Assembly: GCA_903970355.1 (NCBI GenBank)
Contig: CAJCIF010000248.1
Coordinates: 1-17,456, forward strand
DNA: 17,456 bases
Source of the DNA: Actinomycetota bacterium
Lineage (GTDB): Bacteria; Cyanobacteriota; Vampirovibrionia; Obscuribacterales; Obscuribacteraceae
Direction: 5' to 3'
The notes beneath the pieces are model-generated. The model had not been told where the DNA came from and made no database searches. It saw only the letters and a program-made list of their open reading frames with translations. A program made the position numbers and the translations under genes. Shown here in pieces: positions 5,695-17,453 of the stretch. Numbering within the stretch: position 1 is the stretch's first letter; the number at the start of each line of letters is the position of its first letter.

Positions 5695-5720
5695 ACGTAG
5701 ACCGCCCTCTAATTCTACGT
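5695..5720 (-). promoter_or_regulatory. Stem-loop across the aceA stop codon
   Basis: ACGTAGA (5695-5701) and TCTACGT (5714-5720) form a perfect 7-bp inverted repeat with a 12-base loop. The stem includes the aceA stop codon. No U tract follows, so it is not an ordinary terminator. In the aceA to zinc-ribbon junction it could act as a processing or stability element. Only the symmetry is visible. Confidence 0.4.
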
Positions 5721-7058
5721 GACTTTTGAGTCACTGGCTTTTTCCGCTTCAACTGCACTGGCTTTATTGGAACCATTAAACTGACTGGCTTCTGTTGAAC
5801 CGGCGAATGCAGCTGTGGATGCTGAGCCGCCTGTTATTGTCATTAGCACTTCATCAAAATAAGCAGTGCCGACTTCACGCTGATGTCTTCCTGCCGTGTA
5901 GCCGAGATTTTCAGCTTCTATTTCTTCTTCTTGCAAACGTACGTAAGCCGGCATTCCTTCTTTTGCAAAGTCGCGGGCCAGGTTGAATGCTGACAAGTTG
6001 ATGTCGTGCCAACCAGCAAGAGTAATGAATTGATATTTGTATCCCAATTCTCCCAAACGCTTGTTGAAAGTAGATATCGCCTTGTCATCGAGGTGCTGTT
6101 TCCAATTGAAAGAAGGCGAACAGTTATAAGCCATTATTTTGTCTGGATACTCGGCATGAATGGCTTTGGCAAATTGCTCCGCTTCTTCGATATCTGGTGT
6201 TGATGTTTCAAACCAGAGCAAGTCGGCATATGGAGCGTAAGCCAGACCACGCGCAATTGCGGATTCAATTCCTGCTTCCACTTTATAGTAACCTTCGTCG
6301 GTTCGATCACCATAAATGAACGCTTTATCGCGCGGATCTATATCTGATGTTAGAAGTGTGGCGCTGTGCGCATCTGTACGGGCAATAATAATGGTGGGCA
6401 CATCCAACACATCAGCAGCCAATCTTGCTCCTGCCAGGGTGCGAATAAATTGTGAGGTTGGTACAAGCACTTTGCCACCAAGGTGTCCACATTTTTTTTC
6501 GGCGGCCAGTTGATCTTCGAAATGCACTCCGGCAGCACCGGCTTCAATCATTGCTTTCATCAACTCGAAGGCGTGCAATGGCCCGCCAAAACCTGCTTCC
6601 GCATCGGCAACAATCGGCACATACCATTTAGTTGAGCGCTTCCCTTCTACGGCATGAATTTGATCGGCCCGAGTTAAAGCGTTATTGAGGCGCTTAACCA
6701 GATTTGGAACACTGTTAGATGGATAGAGGCTTTGGTCCGGATAAGTTTGTGCAGAGAGATTACCGTCTGCAGCAACTTGCCAGCCGCTCATATAAATAGA
6801 TTTGAGACCGGCTTTGACTGCCTGCACAGCCTGAGAGCCATTGAGAGCGCCAAGACATGAAATATAAGGTTCTTTCTCGAGGAGTTTCCAGAGTTGTTCG
6901 GCTCCATGTTGTGCCAGAGAGTAGTCCACCTTAAGTGAAGGTCTTAACTTCATTACTTCAGCGGCGGAATAATCTCTGCGAATACCACGCCATCGATCAT
7001 CGGTAGACCACCGGCCCTCCAATTCTTTTGCCTCATCTTCTGCTGAATGCCGACTCAT
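5715..7058 (-). CDS. aceA: Isocitrate lyase
   Basis: This enzyme cleaves isocitrate to succinate and glyoxylate, the first step of the glyoxylate shunt, in the cytoplasm. At 447 residues it is close to the E. coli enzyme (434). The active-site loop KKCGH is at 188-192 with catalytic Cys190. Other family segments are [10 protein letters not shown] at 91-100, [12 protein letters not shown] at 148-159, the metal/substrate region [19 protein letters not shown], and NCSPSFNW at 312-319. [10 protein letters not shown] (418-427) matches the usual C terminus; a further Ser/Ala/Lys-rich tail of about 20 residues is extra. AGGAGGT (7066-7072) seven bases upstream fixes the start. It lies 43 bp downstream of aceB and 41 bp upstream of the zinc-ribbon gene, consistent with one transcript. 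No aceK is present, so regulation by isocitrate dehydrogenase kinase is not encoded here. Confidence 0.97.
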
Positions 7059-7101
7059 GCCGACTACCTCCTGATTAGATACCTGTTTAGCATTGATGCC
7101 G

Positions 7102-8700
7102 TTAACCGTGAAGACGGTTTAGGACTGCATATGCCGGAATGGTGAGGAACTCAATAAACGATTCGTTGTTAATCAATTCGTCTAAGATCTCACCTGCTTC
7201 TTTGAAATGACCTGCACCGCCCTTTGTTAGTGTTTCCAACTGCTCTTCTTTGATTGTTTTGTAAAGCGTGAGAGTTACCATCTCATCTTCATCCGTTATG
7301 GCACTAAGACGGATCCATTGCCAAAGCTGTGCCCGTGAAATTTCTGCAGTAGCAGCATCTTCCATCAGGTTATTTATGGCGGCTGCGCCCTGTCCTCTTA
7401 ACCAGGATTCGATGTATTGCAATGCCACACTGATATTGCTCGTGATGCCAGATTTGGTGATCTTGCCACCTTCTATGTGCGTGCCGAGAATTTGATCGGC
7501 TGTGACGGTTAAATTCGTCAACGGTTTATCTTTTTGATTCGGCCTTTTACCGAGAGCATTGTCGAACACTTCCCTGGCAATTGGCACGAGATCCGGGTGT
7601 GCAACCCATGTACCGTCGAAGCCTCTTTCAGTTTCTCGCTCTTTGTCTTCTTTCACTTTTGCGATGGCGCTATTGTTGATTTCAGCATCTTTTCGGCTCG
7701 GAATAAAGGCAGCCATACCTCCCATAGCATGAGCACCACGGCGGTGACATGTCTCAACCATAAGCCGGCAATAGGCATCCATAAATGGAACGCTCATAGT
7801 TACTAGCGAGCGGTTCGGAAAAATGAAATTCCTGTTCCTGCTCATTTTCTTGATGATGCTGAAGATGTAATCCCATCTGCCGGCATTTAAGCCCGCGGCG
7901 TGATCACGCAGTTCATAGAGAATTTCATCCATTTCGAAGGCGGCTAAGATCGTTTCGATTAAAATCGTCGCTCGAATAGTGCCACGCGCTATCTTTAAAT
8001 AGTCTTGAGCAAAATTGAAAACATCGTTCCAGAGCCGAGCTTCAAGGTGACTTTCCATTTTCGGCAAATAGAAATACGGACCGCTTTTTCTTTCCAGCAG
8101 TTGATGTGCGTTGTGGAAGAAGAATAATCCGAAATCAAAAAGACTGGCCGAGATCGGCGCGCCTTCAACGTGGAAATGCTCTTCATTAAGATGCCATCCG
8201 CGCGGGCGAACAACAAGCGTGGCAATCTGATCTTTGAGCTTGTATTCCTTACCTTCACTGCTCACGAAAGCGAGTTTTCGAGTAATGGCATCTTGCAGAT
8301 TGGCCTGCCCTTCCAGGACATTTATCCAAGTTGGTGAAAGCGCATCTTCGAAATCGGCCATAAAAACATTGGCGCCGGAATTAAAGGCGTTGATCATCAT
8401 TTTCTTTTCGACAGGCCCTGTGATTTCAACGCGGCGGTCTAAAAGATCGGCAGGACATTCTGCTACCTTCCAATCGTCTTTGCGTATATCGGCTGTGTCT
8501 TTAAGAAAATTCGGCAGTTGATGATTGTTGATCAGTTCTTGACGTTTCTTTCGTTCACCAAGCAATTCGAGTCTTCTGCCGTTGAATTTCTTGTGTAATT
8601 CGGCAAGAAAAGACATTGCATCTTTGGTTAAGACCCGATCTTCTATATGTGTGTGAGTGGCGGGACCTTTGATTTCCCAATTGTCTTTCACTACAGTCAT
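7102..8700 (-). CDS. aceB: Malate synthase A
   Basis: This enzyme condenses glyoxylate with acetyl-CoA to malate, the second glyoxylate-shunt step. With ATG at 8700 it has 532 residues, almost the length of E. coli AceB (533). The start has GGGGAG seven bases upstream, whereas the in-frame ATG at 8739 adds 13 residues without comparable support. The malate synthase signature [16 protein letters not shown] is at 265-280, with [12 protein letters not shown] from 114, [17 protein letters not shown], and [10 protein letters not shown] at 362-371. The domain set is that of isoform A; the large insertion typical of isoform G is absent. As the first of four close minus-strand genes it probably sets transcription of the whole cluster, from a promoter somewhere in 8701-8860. 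I could not identify convincing -35/-10 boxes there. Confidence 0.97.
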
Positions 8701-8860
8701 CGTGACTCTCCCCAGGTGTTTATTTCGAACCCCATACATCTAGCATGCCACGTATAAGGACGTTCCGCCGCGCGTTTTGTACCGCAAAGCATCATCCAGG
8801 TTGATTTTTTAAGAACTCTTTACTTCCTTAAAGATCGACTTATAGGTCAGCCAGTTGAAT

Positions 8861-9505
8861 TTACTGCTGGTAGTTCAAAGCATTTCCTCTTAAACCGGAA
8901 GCGCCGGTTGGGTTTGAAACCCCGCCGGAAGCGCTCGTTGGGTTTGTTTGAACCACGTTTGGTGGCGTATTGCTAGCTCCGGAACCGGTACCGGAAACGT
9001 TTGATGGACCGCTTGCAGTACTGGTACCGCTCGGGTTGGCACCGAAACCGGCAATGCTGTTTTGTTGTGGCAAGCCAGAGGCACTATTGGTAAGGCCAAG
9101 AGCAGCATTAGTACTGGCAGCACTGGGAACGTACACTGGTACGAACCCGACGCTAAGATTGGGATTATTTCCTGGCGGGGCTAGTCGGCCAATTCCGACA
9201 GCACCGGTAAGACCAGCCGGCGTTAGCAAACGGCCTATACCACCAGCGCCACCAGATCCGCTCGTGGTGCCCGGCAAAGATGATCTAATTGCGCCGGCAG
9301 TTGTGATGGTGGCACCACCACTTGTAGAGACAAGCCCGCTTTGAATGGCTCCGGCTGGGGTGCCGCTATTGACTGGTGACAAGCTAAAGCTTGGATTGGT
9401 TGGGTTGGTGAACGGAATTGGATTAGTAGATTGCTGCGCTCTCACGGGCTTAAAAAAGCCAATAGCTGCAACTGCTAAAACAAGGGCGAACGAAGCTTGC
9501 CTCAT
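8861..9505 (-). CDS. Secreted Gly/Ser/Asn/Pro-rich low-complexity protein
   Basis: This 214-residue protein of unknown function has a clear signal peptide: Arg2, hydrophobic core about 4-18, and cleavage after VRA (residue 23) before Gln24. The mature part is dominated by Gly, Ser, Thr, Asn, Pro and Ala with almost no charge and no Cys. It contains short quasi-repeats such as GIGRLLTPAG/GIGRLAPPG and a tandem 10-residue unit NPTSASGGVS/NPTGASGLRG near the C terminus. Composition fits a surface or extracellular-matrix protein with a flexible chain; no known domain is recognised. AAGGAGG lies eight bases before the ATG. It follows the response-regulator gene on the same strand after 111 bp containing strong secondary structure. 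The signal peptide and SD support reality even though long open frames also occur on the opposite strand. Confidence 0.78.
   Translation of the reverse strand: MRQASFALVLAVAAIGFFKPVRAQQSTNPIPFTNPTNPSFSLSPVNSGTPAGAIQSGLVSTSGGATITTAGAIRSSLPGTTSGSGGAGGIGRLLTPAGLTGAVGIGRLAPPGNNPNLSVGFVPVYVPSAASTNAALGLTNSASGLPQQNSIAGFGANPSGTSTASGPSNVSGTGSGASNTPPNVVQTNPTSASGGVSNPTGASGLRGNALNYQQ
8895..8954 (-). repeat. 30-bp in-frame tandem duplication in the secreted protein gene
   Basis: The segment CCGGAAGCGC at 8895-8904 recurs at 8925-8934, with most of the following 20 bases also matching. The period of exactly 30 bases encodes two adjacent 10-residue units, NPTSASGGVS and NPTGASGLRG. This suggests repeat expansion by slippage or unequal recombination within a low-complexity surface protein. 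Confidence 0.7.
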
Positions 9506-10379: not shown

Positions 10380-10470
10380 GATGAACTTGCATCGTGCGGC
10401 CCAAAATGATAGTTCCACGTCCGCTCAGGCGATATTGTAAGGCCTAGCGATGGTATCGGATTTGATATCG

Positions 10471-10502
10471 AAAAGAAAAAGACCTGTCAACAACAGGTCT
10501 TT
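10471..10502 (-). terminator. Rho-independent terminator of the small orphan gene
   Basis: AAAGACCTGT (10478-10487) and ACAGGTCTTT (10493-10502) form a perfect 10-bp stem with a five-base loop. On the minus strand the stem is followed by TTTTTCTTTT (10480 down to 10471). This is the clearest intrinsic terminator in the window. It lies about 50 bases beyond the stop of the 61-residue gene, which supports that gene being real. Confidence 0.9.
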
Positions 10503-10549: not shown

Positions 10550-10735
10550 TTAGGCAGCGCCTAATTGAGCCTGCATATTTTCATGCCAAGTACGCTTGGC
10601 GCTGTTCCCGTCAATAACTGCGAAAAAGTGATTGAATCTCAATACGTTCGAATTTCTCTTCTCTTGATTGACCAACGCATCATTGGTAATCACCGTTAAC
10701 TTTAATGTGGAATTTTTGTTCTTAGAAGTTTTCAT
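10550..10735 (-). CDS. Small orphan protein, 61 residues, unknown function
   Basis: The protein is not recognised. It is Asn-rich (NKNS, NQEKRNSN, NMQ), has a basic N-terminal third, a hydrophobic centre around RFNHFFAVIDG (33-43) and a C terminus RTWHENMQAQLGAA. It has no Cys, no signal peptide and no transmembrane helix. Reality is supported by AAGGAG nine bases before the ATG and by a perfect intrinsic terminator about 50 bases after the stop, with no other gene between. It appears to be an independent transcription unit on the minus strand, behind a long, potentially structured leader. It could be a small regulatory protein or peptide precursor, but nothing in the sequence decides this. 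Confidence 0.68.
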   Translation of the reverse strand: MKTSKNKNSTLKLTVITNDALVNQEKRNSNVLRFNHFFAVIDGNSAKRTWHENMQAQLGAA

Positions 10736-11289: not shown

Positions 11290-13191
11290 ATGCAGTCTAT
11301 TACTGACAGGTTCCAGCTCGGGCAACTGGCCATTAACCTTGGCTTGATTGACGAGCGCAATTTATCTGAAGCGCTTGCGCTTTCAGGCGATACCGGTTTA
11401 CCGGTTGGACGCGTCCTTGTCATGTCTGCGCTCATGAGCGAGCGCGATCTAGATAACTTGGTTAGATGCCAAACCCTTTTGCGCGAAGAGATGGTAGATG
11501 TGCGGACAGTCGCCAAGGCCATGGAAATTGCACGTTATCAGGCGCTTTCCATCGACGATGCCTTATATCAATGTGGTTGGATACCGCCCGATCAGGGCGA
11601 ACCACTGCCTCTCGGTCAGCTCTTAGTCGATGCGAAGATAATCGCCGACGATCAACTTGAAGCCGCCCTTAAACAACAAGAGAAGGTCAATCTTCCCCTG
11701 GGAAGAGTGCTAGTTCTAAGCGGCGTCATTCCGGAAGCCTTATTAACAGCGGGAATTAACGCCCAGATTATGGTTAGGGACAAAAAGCTGGACCGAAACC
11801 AAGCTGTTGAAGCCCTCAAGGAAACCAAGAAACGGCAGATACCCCTTGAGAGCTTTCTCAAAACAAAGGGCTTCTATGAAATGCCCAATCGCAATTGCCC
11901 TCGTCTGGGAGAGCTTTTGCGGGTTGCCGGTTTGGTATCGGATGCAGAACTGATAACGGCTCTCGAACATGGTCTTACCCTCCAGAAGCCAATTGGGGAA
12001 GTTCTTGTTGAAGCGCATCTCGTTTCCCGAACTGTAATGGAATCAGCACTCAAGCTTCAGAACTACATAACGGAAGGCAAGATTCGGCTGGACCAGGCTC
12101 GTTCCATCCTAATGTCCGTGAACGATGGGATGACGTTCGAAGAGGCCACAAACCAAGATACAAAGCCGCCCGAGCGCTTGGCTGAGGCGCGAGAGCGCAT
12201 GTCGTTTTTAACTTTTCTGGAAAATCTCAAGCAAATTGATGAATCTTCTCTCGAAAGCGCCTTTGAAATAGCCAAGATGAATACAAATCTGGTGAAGCAA
12301 ATACTTTTACTGGGACAGTTAACCAATGAAGCCAGTCTAGAAAGAGCGGAAGAATGCTACCGCCTTGCTTTAAGCGGCAAACTCACCATGGAGCATTCCT
12401 ATATTGTTTTTGAATACGCGCAAAGACGAGCCATTAACATCTCCGAGGCTCTTAAAGAACTCAACTGGCAGCAAGGCGGTCCGGACAATACTCAAGCCGC
12501 AAGTCGCCAACCTGCTCCCGGCCAGCATCTAAGTTCTGGCCAGATCGTTGCTCTACGCGACAGCGCCATTCAACTCGACAGCCGCGGCGACTTTTTTGCC
12601 GCTCGCGAGATATTCGAGAAACTACTGGTTGAACTTGTAAACAGAGATGAAACCTGGTATCTCAACTGTCTGGATGCACTGGCTCAAACCTGCATTCACT
12701 GCCGAGATCTCGAATCAGCAGAACGCTATTCCAATGAAGCTTTAAGACGCAAGAAAGAACTTTTTGGCAATGAAAGCATGGAAGCGGCAGTTGCCATCGA
12801 CGGCCTTGGTAAGCTGCATTACTTTCAACAGCGCTTTTCCGAGGCTCTCGATTGTGCCAATGAATACATTCGTCTTTGCCGCAAGAATCTCGGGCCGGAA
12901 CATCCACACGTTGCCTGCGGCTGGCAAAACGTTGCTTCCGTTCACTATGCCCGCAAAGAAATTAGACAAGCAGTTCGCGGTTATGAAATAGCGGTAGACA
13001 TCTGCCGTAAATCTCTCGGTCCTAGCCATCCAACCACAATTCGGCTCGAACGCAATTACAACATTGCTGCACAAGCATTGGAAGAAGCGCAAATCGAACC
13101 CGTGCGCGGTGTCGGTGTGATCACCGGAAGTTGGCGGACCATTACAGTTCCTGCCGATGCCGAGTTGCATCAGCTAACTTCGGAAAATTGA
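11290..13191 (+). CDS. GspE-N/MshEN-like repeat array plus TPR protein (paralogue 1)
   Basis: This 633-residue protein lacks signal peptide and membrane helices, so it is cytoplasmic. Residues about 8-260 hold six half-motifs of the type (P/R)xG..L....(I/L)....L..AL..Q, at about 8-31, 38-61, 107-130, 136-159, 205-228 and 234-257, with degenerate units continuing to about 390. These resemble the GspE N-terminal (MshEN) motif, which binds c-di-GMP in some type II secretion and MSHA ATPases, but no ATPase domain follows. A Gln/Pro/Ala linker (about 397-412) leads to four kinesin-light-chain-like TPRs (about 416-574). The C terminus carries GVITGSWRTITVP (609-621). The ATG at 11290 is preferred over 11242 because the paralogue aligns from residue 1 and AGGGG lies seven bases upstream. 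Nineteen bases separate it from paralogue 2. Probably a scaffold or effector; function unproven. Confidence 0.82.
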   Translation: MQSITDRFQLGQLAINLGLIDERNLSEALALSGDTGLPVGRVLVMSALMSERDLDNLVRCQTLLREEMVDVRTVAKAMEIARYQALSIDDALYQCGWIPPDQGEPLPLGQLLVDAKIIADDQLEAALKQQEKVNLPLGRVLVLSGVIPEALLTAGINAQIMVRDKKLDRNQAVEALKETKKRQIPLESFLKTKGFYEMPNRNCPRLGELLRVAGLVSDAELITALEHGLTLQKPIGEVLVEAHLVSRTVMESALKLQNYITEGKIRLDQARSILMSVNDGMTFEEATNQDTKPPERLAEARERMSFLTFLENLKQIDESSLESAFEIAKMNTNLVKQILLLGQLTNEASLERAEECYRLALSGKLTMEHSYIVFEYAQRRAINISEALKELNWQQGGPDNTQAASRQPAPGQHLSSGQIVALRDSAIQLDSRGDFFAAREIFEKLLVELVNRDETWYLNCLDALAQTCIHCRDLESAERYSNEALRRKKELFGNESMEAAVAIDGLGKLHYFQQRFSEALDCANEYIRLCRKNLGPEHPHVACGWQNVASVHYARKEIRQAVRGYEIAVDICRKSLGPSHPTTIRLERNYNIAAQALEEAQIEPVRGVGVITGSWRTITVPADAELHQLTSEN

Positions 13192-13210
13192 TTTAGAGGG
13201 TTGCACGGAA

Positions 13211-15148
13211 ATGAAGACAATCGGCAGCAAATATCAGCTTGGCGAATTGGCCATAAACTTGGGCCTGATTGACGCCAACGATTTAAATCAGGCTCTTTCC
13301 ATTTCGACGGAAACGTCTTTGCCTGTAGGACGAGTGCTCGTTATGGCCGAGCTCATGTCGGAAACCGACCTTAACAATCTCATTCGGGCTCAGACTTTCT
13401 TGCGCGAGAGCATGATTGATTACGAACTTGCCCAGAAAGCAATTGCCGTTACTCGATCTGAAAACCTGCCCTTCGAGAATGCCCTCTACAAGCTCGGTTG
13501 GTTGCCGCCCGATCAGGGCGATACTTTACCGCTCGGTCACTTACTTTGCGATGCAAATTTCGTAACGCCGGATCAACTAACGGCAGCGCTCAAGCACCAG
13601 GAAAAAGTGCGGCTTCCTCTTGGGAGAGTGCTGGTTCTTAATGGCGTGCTCACGGAAGCTCTTTTGACGGCCGCCATTAACGCACAAATTATGGTGCGCG
13701 ATAAAAAGCTGAAAAAGGAACAGGCGATTGAAGCTCTCAAAGAAACGAAGAGACGCCAGATTCCCCTTGAAAGTTTTCTGAAATCAAAAGGCTTTTACGA
13801 CATGCCGAACCGCAGTGCTCCAAGACTGGGAGAACTGCTTTCCGTAGCCGGTTTGATTTCTGATAGTGAGTTGGTTACGGCTCTGGAACACGGTCTTACC
13901 CAGAAGAAGCCGATCGGTGAAGTTTTAGTTGGTCTCAAGCTCGTTAACCGAACCGTATTAGAAGCCGCTCTCACCATCCAAACAATGATTGCGGAAAATC
14001 AGATGCGGTTGGATCAAGCCCGTGTCATCCTCATGACGGTTAACGACGGAAAATCTTTATCGGAAGCATTCGCGAGCATGACCGAGGGCGAAGCTGAGCA
14101 GCCAAAGTTAGGCCAACCTCGCATGCCTTTCTTAGAGTTTCTCCAAAAGCTCAAGCAGATTGATGAAAAAGGTCTGGCTGAAGCTTTTGAGATGGCAAAG
14201 CACAATACCAGTTTGATCAAACAGATTTTGATGCTTGGTCAACTGACGGACGAACAGAATCTTTCCCGCGCCGAAATTTGCTACAAAATGGCCGTTGGCG
14301 GCAAGCTAAGTGTTGAACATGCGTGCATCGTCTTTGAATATGCACAACGCCGAGACATTTTAGTGGAGGACGCCCTCAAAGAACTGAACTGGCAACACGG
14401 CGACCAATCTTCACCTAAGGAAAAGCCAAAACCGAAAGGGGAAGATGGCAATTCCGGCGTCAAGTCGATGTCCAATTCGCAAATCATCAAACTTCGCGAT
14501 AGTGCCATTGAACTGAAAGACAAAGGCGATTTTAAATCCGCGCGCCAAATTTTTGAAAAGCTTGCTGTTGAATTGAAAGGGAATGAAGACGGAAGATACA
14601 TTTATTGCCTCGATGCTCTGGCACAAACTTGCATCAGTGCTAAGGATTTTGATGCGGCCGAGAAGTTCTATAACGAATCATTTTCGCTAAGAAAGAAGCG
14701 ATTTGGATCGGAGAGCATGGAGACGGCCGAAGCAATCGATAACCTTGGTAAGTTGAAATACTTTCAAAAGCAATTCGATGAGGCGATTCGATGCGCGAAA
14801 GAATACATTCGCATTTGCACTGTAATATACGGTGAAGATCACCCTCACGTGGCTTGTGGCTGGCAGAACGTTGCTTCCGTTCAGTATGCCGCAAAGGAAA
14901 TTCGTCAGGCGGCAAGATCTTACGAGATTGCCCTCAATATATGTAAGTCCAAGCTGGGTTCACAGCATCCAACTACGGTTCGGCTTGAGAAGAACTACAA
15001 TACCGCCCTTGGTGAACTGAAAGATCAAGAAGATTCCGGTGTCATCACAGGAAGTTGGCGTACCATTAACGTTCCAAATCATATGGCGCTGCTGGAAGAG
15101 CCGGAAGATGAGGAAAGAAACGGTGCTACTGCGGCGGATCGAGGCTAG
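13211..15148 (+). CDS. GspE-N/MshEN-like repeat array plus TPR protein (paralogue 2)
   Basis: This 645-residue paralogue aligns with the preceding gene end to end without large gaps, with roughly six in ten residues identical by eye. The half-motifs fall at the same positions: LGELAINLGLIDANDLNQAL (10-29), PVGRVLVMAELMSETDL (38-54), PLGHLL to Gln130, PLGRVLVLNGVL to Gln159, RLGELLSVAGLISDSEL (205-221) and PIGEVLVGLKL to Gln257. Only the fifth retains the full RLG start; the final Gln is Gly228 there. A Lys/Pro-rich linker (about 399-418) precedes four TPRs (about 424-585), then GVITGSWRTINVP (610-622) and an acidic tail. AGAGGG lies ten bases before the ATG. The pair clearly arose by tandem duplication. 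The last 23 bases overlap the convergent GGDEF/HD-GYP gene. Confidence 0.83.
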   Translation: MKTIGSKYQLGELAINLGLIDANDLNQALSISTETSLPVGRVLVMAELMSETDLNNLIRAQTFLRESMIDYELAQKAIAVTRSENLPFENALYKLGWLPPDQGDTLPLGHLLCDANFVTPDQLTAALKHQEKVRLPLGRVLVLNGVLTEALLTAAINAQIMVRDKKLKKEQAIEALKETKRRQIPLESFLKSKGFYDMPNRSAPRLGELLSVAGLISDSELVTALEHGLTQKKPIGEVLVGLKLVNRTVLEAALTIQTMIAENQMRLDQARVILMTVNDGKSLSEAFASMTEGEAEQPKLGQPRMPFLEFLQKLKQIDEKGLAEAFEMAKHNTSLIKQILMLGQLTDEQNLSRAEICYKMAVGGKLSVEHACIVFEYAQRRDILVEDALKELNWQHGDQSSPKEKPKPKGEDGNSGVKSMSNSQIIKLRDSAIELKDKGDFKSARQIFEKLAVELKGNEDGRYIYCLDALAQTCISAKDFDAAEKFYNESFSLRKKRFGSESMETAEAIDNLGKLKYFQKQFDEAIRCAKEYIRICTVIYGEDHPHVACGWQNVASVQYAAKEIRQAARSYEIALNICKSKLGSQHPTTVRLEKNYNTALGELKDQEDSGVITGSWRTINVPNHMALLEEPEDEERNGATAADRG

Positions 15149-17453
15149 GATTCATTTCAGTACTGTTCTTTTTGAGATTGGCTAGAACAGCAATGAAAAT
15201 ATCCACAAGGAATGGATCCCATTGGGAGCCGGCTCCGCTTTTCAATGTTTCAACGGCGACTTCTTGCGACAGGGCTCGACGATACGGTCTGTCTGAAATC
15301 ATGGCGTGATAGGAATCAACTATGGAAAGAATGCGAGCCGGGAGGGGAATTTCTTCGCCTTTCAGCCCACGTGGATAGCCAGTGCCGTCCCAGCGTTCGT
15401 TGTGATTTTCAAGAATTTCACAGATGTCCCGCAAAGCCCGAATCGGTCTAAGCAGCTCTGCACCTAAAACGGGATGTTGATTGATAACTTGTCTTTCTTC
15501 TTCCGAGAATATTCCTTCTTTGTTTATCAAATCGGAAGGAATGGAAAGAGTGCCGACATCATGCAGCAAGCCGGCAACACGAATTTGTTCTACCTGTTGT
15601 TGCGATAATCCCATCACTCGGGCAAGCAGTTCCGAAATACGAGCTGTTTCGAGATGATGAACCTTGTTGTATTCAGATTTAGAGTAGAGGGCCGATGCCA
15701 GAGCTTTCACCATATCGACGACTTCTGGAACCAGTTCTTCTTTTTCCTGGGCTTCCGGCGTCACGCTTGGAGGCACAAATGGTTGCGTTCCTTTTACCTG
15801 AGTGGCAACTTCAGATGTTGATTTTGGTTGAGCAGGTTGTTCCTCGGCCGGAGCGCTTTCTTCAAACATCAGATCAGATGCCGTATGCACCTGGTTACGC
15901 CCCAGGCGTTTGGACAAATAAAGCGATTTGTCAGCCAGGTCAAGCAAATGTTGCTGGCTCTGGGCATCATCGGGAAAAGCCGCTATGCCCAGGCTGGCTG
16001 TTACTTTGATTTCGATGCCGTCATGTTGAATTGATAGCGCCGCCAGATTTTTGCGAATCCGTTCCGCCACCACTATGGCGCCTTCTTGATTCACCTCGGG
16101 CAGTACCAGAAGAAACTCTTCTCCACCATAGCGAACGGGTAAGTCAACATCGCGAACTTCTCGTTGAATCAGTTTGGCGACCGATCTCAAAACGCTGTCT
16201 CCCGCAGGGTGACCATAGTTGTCGTTGATAGATTTGAAATGGTCTACGTCAATCATCAACACGGCAACATTGCGCTGATAACGTTCTGCTATCCGCAATT
16301 GTTCAGCCAGTTTTTCTTGACCGGTGCGATGATTGAAGAGTCCTGTCAATCCGTCTGTTGTGGCTTGACGTTGAACACGGGCATACAATCGTGCGTTTGT
16401 CACACCAGTTGCTACCTGGTCTGCTACCGATTTCAAAAACGTTTCGTTGTCTCGCGTCCAGTTTCCTTCTGTTTCGCACTTAAAGCCAACCAGGAGCCCA
16501 AGCAATTTTTCTTCGTAAGTGATCGGCACAAAGAAAATCGACAATATGTGGAGCCTGCCAAAAGCGTCTTGCCTGTACGCTTCCATGCGCGGATCGGCCA
16601 TGGCGTCATTTACGATCAAAGGCTGTTCCGGTGAATAGTCTCTCTGGAAAATATCGAGTGCTTTTAAATCAAGATCGAATTCTTTGACGGTGTAATCTTC
16701 GCTATTGGCATACTGGCAGCGAATTGAATCTTCCGGTTCTGCTTCTGATGGCATGACGATGTAACAGCCATCAAGATTCAACCATCCGGCAAGCTCTTCG
16801 AGCATGTCTGTCAGGTTCTGGGATATGTTGAAAGAACGTCTTATTGTATTACTGATGCGGTGCACCAATGTGTCCTGCATCCGCAGCACATCAGATTCCC
16901 AGCGAGCCAGCTTCAATTCATGATTGCGTTGCATCTGCAATTCTTTGTCGCTCGCCAATTTTTCAGTAGCGCTCTTCAATCGTTCGGAAAGATCTTCGAG
17001 GCGCTGCAATTGCAAGGCTAATTCGCGCTCGGCCTGGCGGTGACGCAACGATGATCTCGCCCGGGCAAGAATTTCCGGATCTAATACAGATTCCGAAAGG
17101 CAATCGTCTGCACCCATATTCAGCCCTTGAATGCGAGCGGTTGGATTGGCGTCGGACGTTACAAGAATGATGGGAATATTTTTGAATTCATCTGATTCAC
17201 GAAGAACATGACACATCGGTTGTCCGTTGTCACTAAGAACATAGTTGTCCAAAATGACGAGATCGATATTCATCTGTTTGATTTGTTCAAGGGCGCGTTC
17301 TGCGGTATCCGCTTCGAAAATGCGATAGGAGTTTCCGAGTATTCTCGAGAAACGACGGCGCACCAATCTGTTGGCATGAACGATCAAAATGTTTTCGTTT
17401 TCCAATTGCTTTTTGGCATCTTCTGATGCCGTTAGCAAATTGAAATTAGGCAT
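15126..17453 (-). CDS. REC-GAF-GGDEF-HD-GYP bifunctional cyclic di-GMP protein
   Basis: This 775-residue signalling protein makes, and probably hydrolyses, c-di-GMP. A receiver domain (about 21-138) keeps Asp69 and Thr99, but the acidic pair is replaced by His26-Ala27 and the usual Lys by Glu121, so it is probably a pseudo-receiver. A coiled coil (about 140-190) and GAF domain (about 208-355) follow. The GGDEF domain (about 364-525) has active GGEEF (443-447), metal Asp402 in IDVDHF and an intact inhibitory site R434-x-x-D437. After a Pro/Glu linker, an HD-GYP domain (about 575-760) has H631-D632, H660, H684, GYP 692-694 and D713; HHE reads HNE at 684-686 and HDxGK reads HDVGT. The ATG is three bases from the window edge, so its SD cannot be checked and the start may lie further upstream. 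Confidence 0.93.
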   Translation of the reverse strand: MPNFNLLTASEDAKKQLENENILIVHANRLVRRRFSRILGNSYRIFEADTAERALEQIKQMNIDLVILDNYVLSDNGQPMCHVLRESDEFKNIPIILVTSDANPTARIQGLNMGADDCLSESVLDPEILARARSSLRHRQAERELALQLQRLEDLSERLKSATEKLASDKELQMQRNHELKLARWESDVLRMQDTLVHRISNTIRRSFNISQNLTDMLEELAGWLNLDGCYIVMPSEAEPEDSIRCQYANSEDYTVKEFDLDLKALDIFQRDYSPEQPLIVNDAMADPRMEAYRQDAFGRLHILSIFFVPITYEEKLLGLLVGFKCETEGNWTRDNETFLKSVADQVATGVTNARLYARVQRQATTDGLTGLFNHRTGQEKLAEQLRIAERYQRNVAVLMIDVDHFKSINDNYGHPAGDSVLRSVAKLIQREVRDVDLPVRYGGEEFLLVLPEVNQEGAIVVAERIRKNLAALSIQHDGIEIKVTASLGIAAFPDDAQSQQHLLDLADKSLYLSKRLGRNQVHTASDLMFEESAPAEEQPAQPKSTSEVATQVKGTQPFVPPSVTPEAQEKEELVPEVVDMVKALASALYSKSEYNKVHHLETARISELLARVMGLSQQQVEQIRVAGLLHDVGTLSIPSDLINKEGIFSEEERQVINQHPVLGAELLRPIRALRDICEILENHNERWDGTGYPRGLKGEEIPLPARILSIVDSYHAMISDRPYRRALSQEVAVETLKSGAGSQWDPFLVDIFIAVLANLKKNSTEMNPSLDPPQ

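Follow-up and report, generated by a model that had tools for sequence, protein, structure and literature searches.

MshEN_N repeat arrays on two tandem TPR proteins of 'Candidatus Obscuribacterales': putative c-di-GMP-responsive adaptors

Introduction

In many bacteria, the enzymes that make cyclic diguanylate (c-di-GMP) outnumber the known receptors for it. The locus described here raises the question of whether two tandem genes from a member of 'Candidatus Obscuribacterales' encode receptors of this kind, and whether the enzyme gene beside them acts as their partner. We analyzed the entire contig CAJCIF010000248.1 of assembly GCA_903970355.1 (17,456 bases, hereafter the window), which comes from a genome of 3.75 Mb that is 65.7% complete. 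The genes in question are A (11290–13191, + strand; 633 amino acids, ATG at 11290), B (13211–15148, + strand; 645 amino acids), which starts 19 bases past A, and E (15126–17453, − strand), which converges on B. An earlier reading of the same DNA (the original prediction) proposed that A and B are multivalent c-di-GMP receptors or scaffolds fed by the neighbouring enzyme, E.

Results

A and B are tandem paralogues sharing 61% identity, as had been predicted, and have the same architecture: three MshEN_N units in 98-residue repeats, a degenerate fourth unit, a tetratricopeptide repeat (TPR) domain and a tryptophan-containing tail. A half-motif scan placed hits at residues 9/38, 107/136 and 205/234 of both proteins, with one extra, shifted and overlapping half-motif at 239 in B only. 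Each unit thus consists of paired 24-residue half-motifs joined by a 5-residue linker, and the spacing is 29 inside each unit and 98 from unit to unit throughout. The units lie at 11314–11472, 11608–11766 and 11902–12060 in A and at 13235–13393, 13529–13687 and 13823–13981 in B (all + strand). The NCBIfam profile NF053729 (c-di-GMP motif, MshE-related; 53 positions, cut-off 38 bits) matched three stretches in A (99.3 bits, E 7.6e-29) and three in B (106.1 bits, E 5.7e-31), E values that exclude a chance match. Scan and profile together bear out the claim of at least six half-motifs per paralogue.

The earlier statement that TPRs take the place of an ATPase also held: no Pfam match to the T2SSE ATPase domain was found in A or B at E≤1, and TPR_12 and TPR_10 were matched in their C-terminal parts. 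Nor did PF05157, the Pfam model of MshEN that represents its C subdomain, match A or B at E≤1. The same model matched two PilB-type proteins of this genome (1.6e-18 and 5.9e-18), where it covers the region past the 53-residue motif. A and B therefore appear, from these profile comparisons, to possess the ligand-binding N subdomain but to lack the C subdomain. Structure prediction agreed with the profiles, in that the units were modelled as the four-helix MshEN_N fold and the modelled second unit superposed on MshE–c-di-GMP at 1.2 Å.

To describe the putative site, we refer to MshE, for which the published account (PMC5013675) describes the lead Arg as stacking on guanine, Leu triads on the opposite face of the guanine, a Gly whose backbone bonds guanine, and a Gln that contacts ribose and phosphate. 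In both A and B the first and last residues of the two motifs depart from this pattern. Motifs I and II are led by Gln/Pro in unit 1, Pro/Pro in unit 2 and Arg/Pro in unit 3, and they end in Ser/Gln, Gln/Gln and Gly/Gln, respectively. None of these units has a lead Arg, or its extended equivalents Lys and Leu, in both motifs; unit 2 alone has Gln ending both, the motif I Gln being missing from units 1 and 3.

Conservation was counted in 33 full-length homologues (P0001–P0033), a redundant set that includes A and B. The motif I lead of unit 1 was variable (Arg 9, Gln 8, Lys 6), while Pro led motif I in 26/33 for unit 2 and Arg in 30/33 for unit 3; Pro led motif II in 29, 33 and 29 of the 33 for units 1, 2 and 3. 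The motif II Gln was kept in 32/32, 32/33 and 33/33. The last residue of motif I was Ala/Ser in 31/32 ungapped sequences for unit 1, Gln in 17/33 for unit 2 and Gly/Ser in 33/33 for unit 3. The Gly of the LG pair was retained in 29/32 at G11 and in every ungapped row at the other five places. The fourth unit was found in A at residues 309–356 (12214–12357, + strand; i-Evalue 3e-2) and in B at residues 305–355 (i-Evalue 0.5) with a repeat profile built from the 33 homologues; in the register of the predicted helices it spans 14126–14284 (+ strand) in B, where the motif Gly and Gln are gone and the hydrophobic places are partly retained. Across the homologues this unit had Gly in 0/33 at both Gly places and Gln in 0/33 at both Gln places, with most hydrophobic places still hydrophobic. 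The Gly and the motif II Gln are thus kept in units 1–3 but lost in unit 4, a contrast that points to selection for the ligand motif in the first three.

We then applied one pattern detector to the TPR-class arrays, to other arrays (P0034–P0103) and to control units from other orders (37 units in 28 frames at 27 loci). Among 84 units of the TPR class, motif I ended in Gln in 17, motif II ended in Gln in 83 and Pro led motif II in 77. In the other arrays (203 units), motif I ended in Ser/Ala/Gly in 186, motif II in Gln in 195, and Pro led motif II in 166. The control units had Gln ending motif I in 27, Gln ending motif II in 33 and a Pro-led motif II in 9, figures that lean to consensus because these loci had been taken from the top of the scores. 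Unit-to-unit spacing was 98 in 43/51 cases in the TPR class. For the other arrays, a list of the eight commonest spacings has 98 in 82 cases and 95–100 in a further 37; the nine control spacings were 56–70, with one of 115. When units were placed by profile, 0/98 and 0/262 satisfied all 12 positions, and 17 and 1, respectively, satisfied all but the leads. Outside the arrays, two short proteins from the genome of A and B (L118 and L119) have a unit with both Gln. The arrays show a derived, asymmetric site, in which motif I mostly ends in Ser, Ala or Gly in place of Gln and motif II is mostly led by Pro with its Gln kept.

The C-terminal parts of A and B resemble kinesin light chain in both TPR_12/TPR_10 repeats and predicted fold. 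A Foldseek search with the whole of B returned kinesin light chain entries at the top of the list, realigned to about residues 422–608. The TPR region spans 12550–13086 in A and 14474–15031 in B (both + strand), and it is followed by a conserved tail with the sequence ITGSWR (13111–13149 in A, 15035–15073 in B, + strand), in which Trp616 of B is invariant (33/33 homologues). According to the titles of structure entries, TPR domains of kinesin light chain bind tryptophan-acidic peptides; a model in which the tail occupies the TPR groove is therefore worth testing, and no more. The tail is a candidate for a peptide that acts within the molecule or on a partner.

A and B belong to a large family. 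In their own genome we found 42 motif stretches at E≤1e-3, and the repeat profile matched 22 frames among A, B and those of at least 100 amino acids in 18 stretches of the genome. At i-Evalue≤1e-3, 13 of the 22 hold more than one unit. Pfam searches on 10 of the matched frames gave HATPase_c in one (with HisKA_3 below the cut-off), TPR in one, T2SSE in two, DnaJ in one, DUF4388 above the cut-off in one, only below-cut-off matches in one and nothing in three; the T2SSE and DnaJ frames hold single units and the DUF4388 frame one weak unit. The HATPase_c frame lies on another contig of this genome (C371; L109, 3363–5543, + strand) and joins three MshEN_N units to a histidine-kinase-type ATPase domain, which makes it, on its domain content, a candidate kinase under cyclic-dinucleotide control.

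Matches to B at E≤1e-30 occurred in 24 of 40 genomes, its own included: 21/24 of the same family, 3/3 of another family of the order and 0/13 from other orders of the class. With NF053729 at E≤1e-6, all 50 same-family genomes had matches (9–64 stretches each, PilB-type single units counted). In 16 same-family genomes we counted 0–2 PilZ domains (none in 8/16), 16–46 GGDEF domains and 4–7 HD_5 domains (E≤1e-20); in the genome studied here, MshEN_N units outnumber PilZ. The wider phylum sample of 59 genomes contained seven further families (f9, f11, f15, f18, f19, f22 and f25) with 10–48 MshEN_N stretches per genome, and Obscuribacterales are therefore not alone in having multiplied the unit; at the loci read from those families the units are 56–70 residues apart (one 115), compared with 98. 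In a tree of the homologues, A (P0004) grouped with P0005, and B (P0001) with P0002 and P0003, its nearest homologues at 88–89% identity, with strong support for each group. Since A and B cluster with separate homologues, the duplication that produced them probably predates this species. Many of the stretches in the 50 same-family genomes lie in repeat arrays, an architecture for which no description was found in the literature listings searched.

The claim that a REC-GAF-GGDEF-HD-GYP gene converges on the pair was confirmed, with an overlap of 23 bp (B runs to 15148 and E from 15126). Pfam assigned REC, GAF, GGDEF and HD domains to E. At the place where receiver domains usually have an acidic pair, E has VHAN. 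The GGDEF domain (15891–16364, − strand) has intact GGEEF and RxxD motifs. In the HD-GYP domain (15213–15686, − strand) HD and GYP are present, HNE replaces HHE, and Thr stands at the Lys place of HDxGK. At E≤1e-100, E was matched in 19/26 genomes, its own included and one (G012) in two pieces, and in 0/7 from other orders. We compared E with 16 aligned relatives, for which only GG[DE]EF frames were kept, and with one relative read separately (L091), giving 18 sequences with E. RxxD was present in 18/18, GGEEF in 17/18 (GGEEI in L091) and HHE in 17/18, HNE being unique to E; Lys after HDxG was found in 0/18. HHE and this Lys are described as metal-site residues of PmGH (PMC12943098). The idea that E both makes and breaks c-di-GMP is made doubtful by HNE in the place where all 17 relatives keep HHE; E is more likely a maker. 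On its motifs, E is probably an active diguanylate cyclase whose phosphodiesterase half is weakened or dead.

The frame of E is open up to the contig end, because the window is the whole contig. In 14/16 relatives measured the frame remains open 167–212 codons further upstream; the two exceptions belong to the other family. The true start of E may therefore not be the Met at 17453. The upstream extension of L091, the sole relative scanned, had no Pfam match at E≤0.01.

Conservation of the neighbourhood was the point on which the original prediction failed. Within flanks of up to 10 kb, several of them cut by contig ends (6 kb for L100), the neighbourhoods of full-length A/B homologues, 9 distinct ones from 7 genomes (10 records, two of them one place), gave no match to E by tblastn at 1e-8. 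Searches with A and B at 1e-4 found an array in 0/17 neighbourhoods of E relatives, the sole match being one TPR (in that of L091). When 15–20 array genes and 17 GGDEF genes were shuffled in an assumed 3,500 genes, some adjacency arose in about 13–17% of shuffles. E is thus conserved in the lineage but does not look like a dedicated partner of A and B, and its closeness to them is probably incidental.

Elsewhere in the window, an isocitrate lyase and a malate synthase gene adjoin (5715–8739, − strand), together the glyoxylate bypass, and a LigD-type DNA ligase with a primase-polymerase domain is truncated by the contig start (3–2135, + strand). A 214-residue Gly/Ser/Pro-rich protein (8861–9505, − strand) begins with what, judged by eye, resembles a signal peptide; no Pfam match was found for it at E≤1. 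A 61-residue open frame (10550–10735, − strand) has a purine-rich stretch ahead of its ATG and, about 50 bases beyond its stop, a hairpin followed by a T run on the same strand (about 10470–10502). It looks like a real small gene.

Discussion

What, then, do A and B do? Their MshEN_N units, recognized by profile and by predicted fold, occur on TPR proteins that have no ATPase, and a multivalent c-di-GMP receptor or scaffold, as originally proposed, is therefore the best reading. We consider that A and B have a somewhat better than even chance of being c-di-GMP-responsive TPR adaptors. In such an adaptor the nucleotide would be sensed by the N-terminal part, a helical array in which three four-helix units alternate with helical spacers of 45 residues, one after each unit. 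Binding of c-di-GMP in the manner of MshE would fall to one of the units, most likely unit 2, and perhaps to units 1 and 3 as well. The signal would pass from the array to the TPR domain and control docking of a target, with the conserved Trp tail acting as an intramolecular or partner peptide. A and B are two members of an expanded array family; of the others in this genome, some carry a TPR or a histidine-kinase ATPase domain and some have no further domain.

The original prediction had cautioned that loss of the lead Arg might abolish binding. The leads do deviate, but the objection is weaker than stated, because proteins lacking one or both Arg bind c-di-GMP. PilF GSPII-B, with Lys/Leu leads, binds with a KD of 6 nM, and GSPII-C, in which Pro leads motif II, has a KD near the 500 nM of MshEN (PMC11731258). 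Escherichia coli NfrB binds with a Kd of 1.0 µM (PMC8669469); in the K-12 gene, which we read, motif I runs from Pro489 to Arg and motif II from Arg to Gln, at a spacing of 28. In MshE itself, changes of Arg9, Asp12 and Gln32 lowered affinity at most fivefold (PMC5013675). The more notable deviation, which the prediction did not mention, is loss of the motif I Gln in units 1 and 3. Against this, PilF GSPII-A is reported not to bind, through a Ser lead, missing Gln residues and inter-subdomain contacts (PMC12002112). We met no precedent for the Pro/Pro leads that unit 2 has, nor for a motif I ending in Gly, Ser or Ala.

These departures lend themselves to another explanation, in which the arrays no longer bind a nucleotide and act as structural scaffolds, the conserved motif residues serving repeat packing or protein docking. 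No unit meets the full consensus, the lead Arg is missing from 5 of 6 half-motifs in A and B alike, one Gln is gone from units 1 and 3, and binding by XpsE was lost via several changes (PMC5013675). However, the XpsE losses include Gly, Leu and motif II Gln places that the arrays keep, and units 1–3 hardly vary at the contact Gly or the motif II Gln, both of which are absent from unit 4, whose predicted helices are similar. We therefore regard loss of binding as unlikely, while giving it real weight.

We give distinctly less credence to a different ligand, either another cyclic dinucleotide or c-di-GMP held in a changed, asymmetric mode. Motif I, mostly stacking through Arg/Lys without Gln, and motif II, with Gln and Pro, would match a ligand with two unlike ends, for example 3',3'-cGAMP or a linear dinucleotide; the asymmetry is wide in the family, and cGAMP is a ligand of MshEN, though a weaker one than c-di-GMP (PMC5013675). 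Set against this are the GGEEF signature of E, the lean of the control loci towards consensus, and unit 2 of A and B, which is not asymmetric because both its Gln are present and both its leads are Pro. A dedicated local module of A, B and E, in which E would make c-di-GMP beside its receptors, is very improbable: the overlapping convergence and the precedent of a cyclase paired with an MshEN effector, DgcJ–NfrB (PMC8669469), speak for it, but the adjacency recurred in none of the neighbourhoods compared, would arise by chance in about 13–17% of shuffles with the assumed gene number, and places the genes on opposite strands, where convergent genes share no common transcript.

If the arrays do bind, as the adaptor reading would have it, they would fill a receptor gap in a lineage with many GGDEF domains and few PilZ, docking by TPRs would become a direct output of c-di-GMP, and a natural series of altered sites would show which MshEN contacts are needed. 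Much more tentatively, and with the balance of probability against it, helical arrays of 98-residue MshEN_N repeats, whether joined to TPR or histidine-kinase effectors or on their own, may have replaced PilZ as the main class of cyclic-dinucleotide receptor in 'Ca. Obscuribacterales'. Their mostly asymmetric sites, with Arg/Lys but no Gln in one half and Gln but Pro for Arg in the other, would then give altered affinity or specificity, or graded multivalent sensing.

The MshEN unit is already known as a c-di-GMP binder; the variant here is a lineage-expanded MshEN_N array on a TPR protein. With the MshEN domain of Vibrio cholerae MshE (PDB 5htl), A and B share the two 24-residue half-motifs, the 5-residue linker, the Leu/Gly pattern, the motif II Gln and, by prediction, the four-helix fold; they differ in having three units in 98-residue repeats, no PF05157 match and no ATPase, in the replacement of most Arg and in the motif I Gln missing from two units. 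Thermus thermophilus PilF likewise has three tandem MshEN-like domains, GSPII-A, -B and -C, and tolerates non-Arg leads in B and C, but its domains are about 140–170 residues each and precede an ATPase (PMC11731258). E. coli NfrB resembles A and B in carrying an MshEN unit outside an ATPase, with a Pro-led motif I that has no terminal Gln, and NfrB nevertheless binds c-di-GMP; it differs in being a membrane glycosyltransferase effector with an Arg-led motif II and no 98-residue array. Finally, the TPR domains of kinesin light chain and BtubC have the same TPR_12/TPR_10 repeats, whereas A and B are bacterial and join them to a nucleotide-motif array; the common TPR fold proves no common function.

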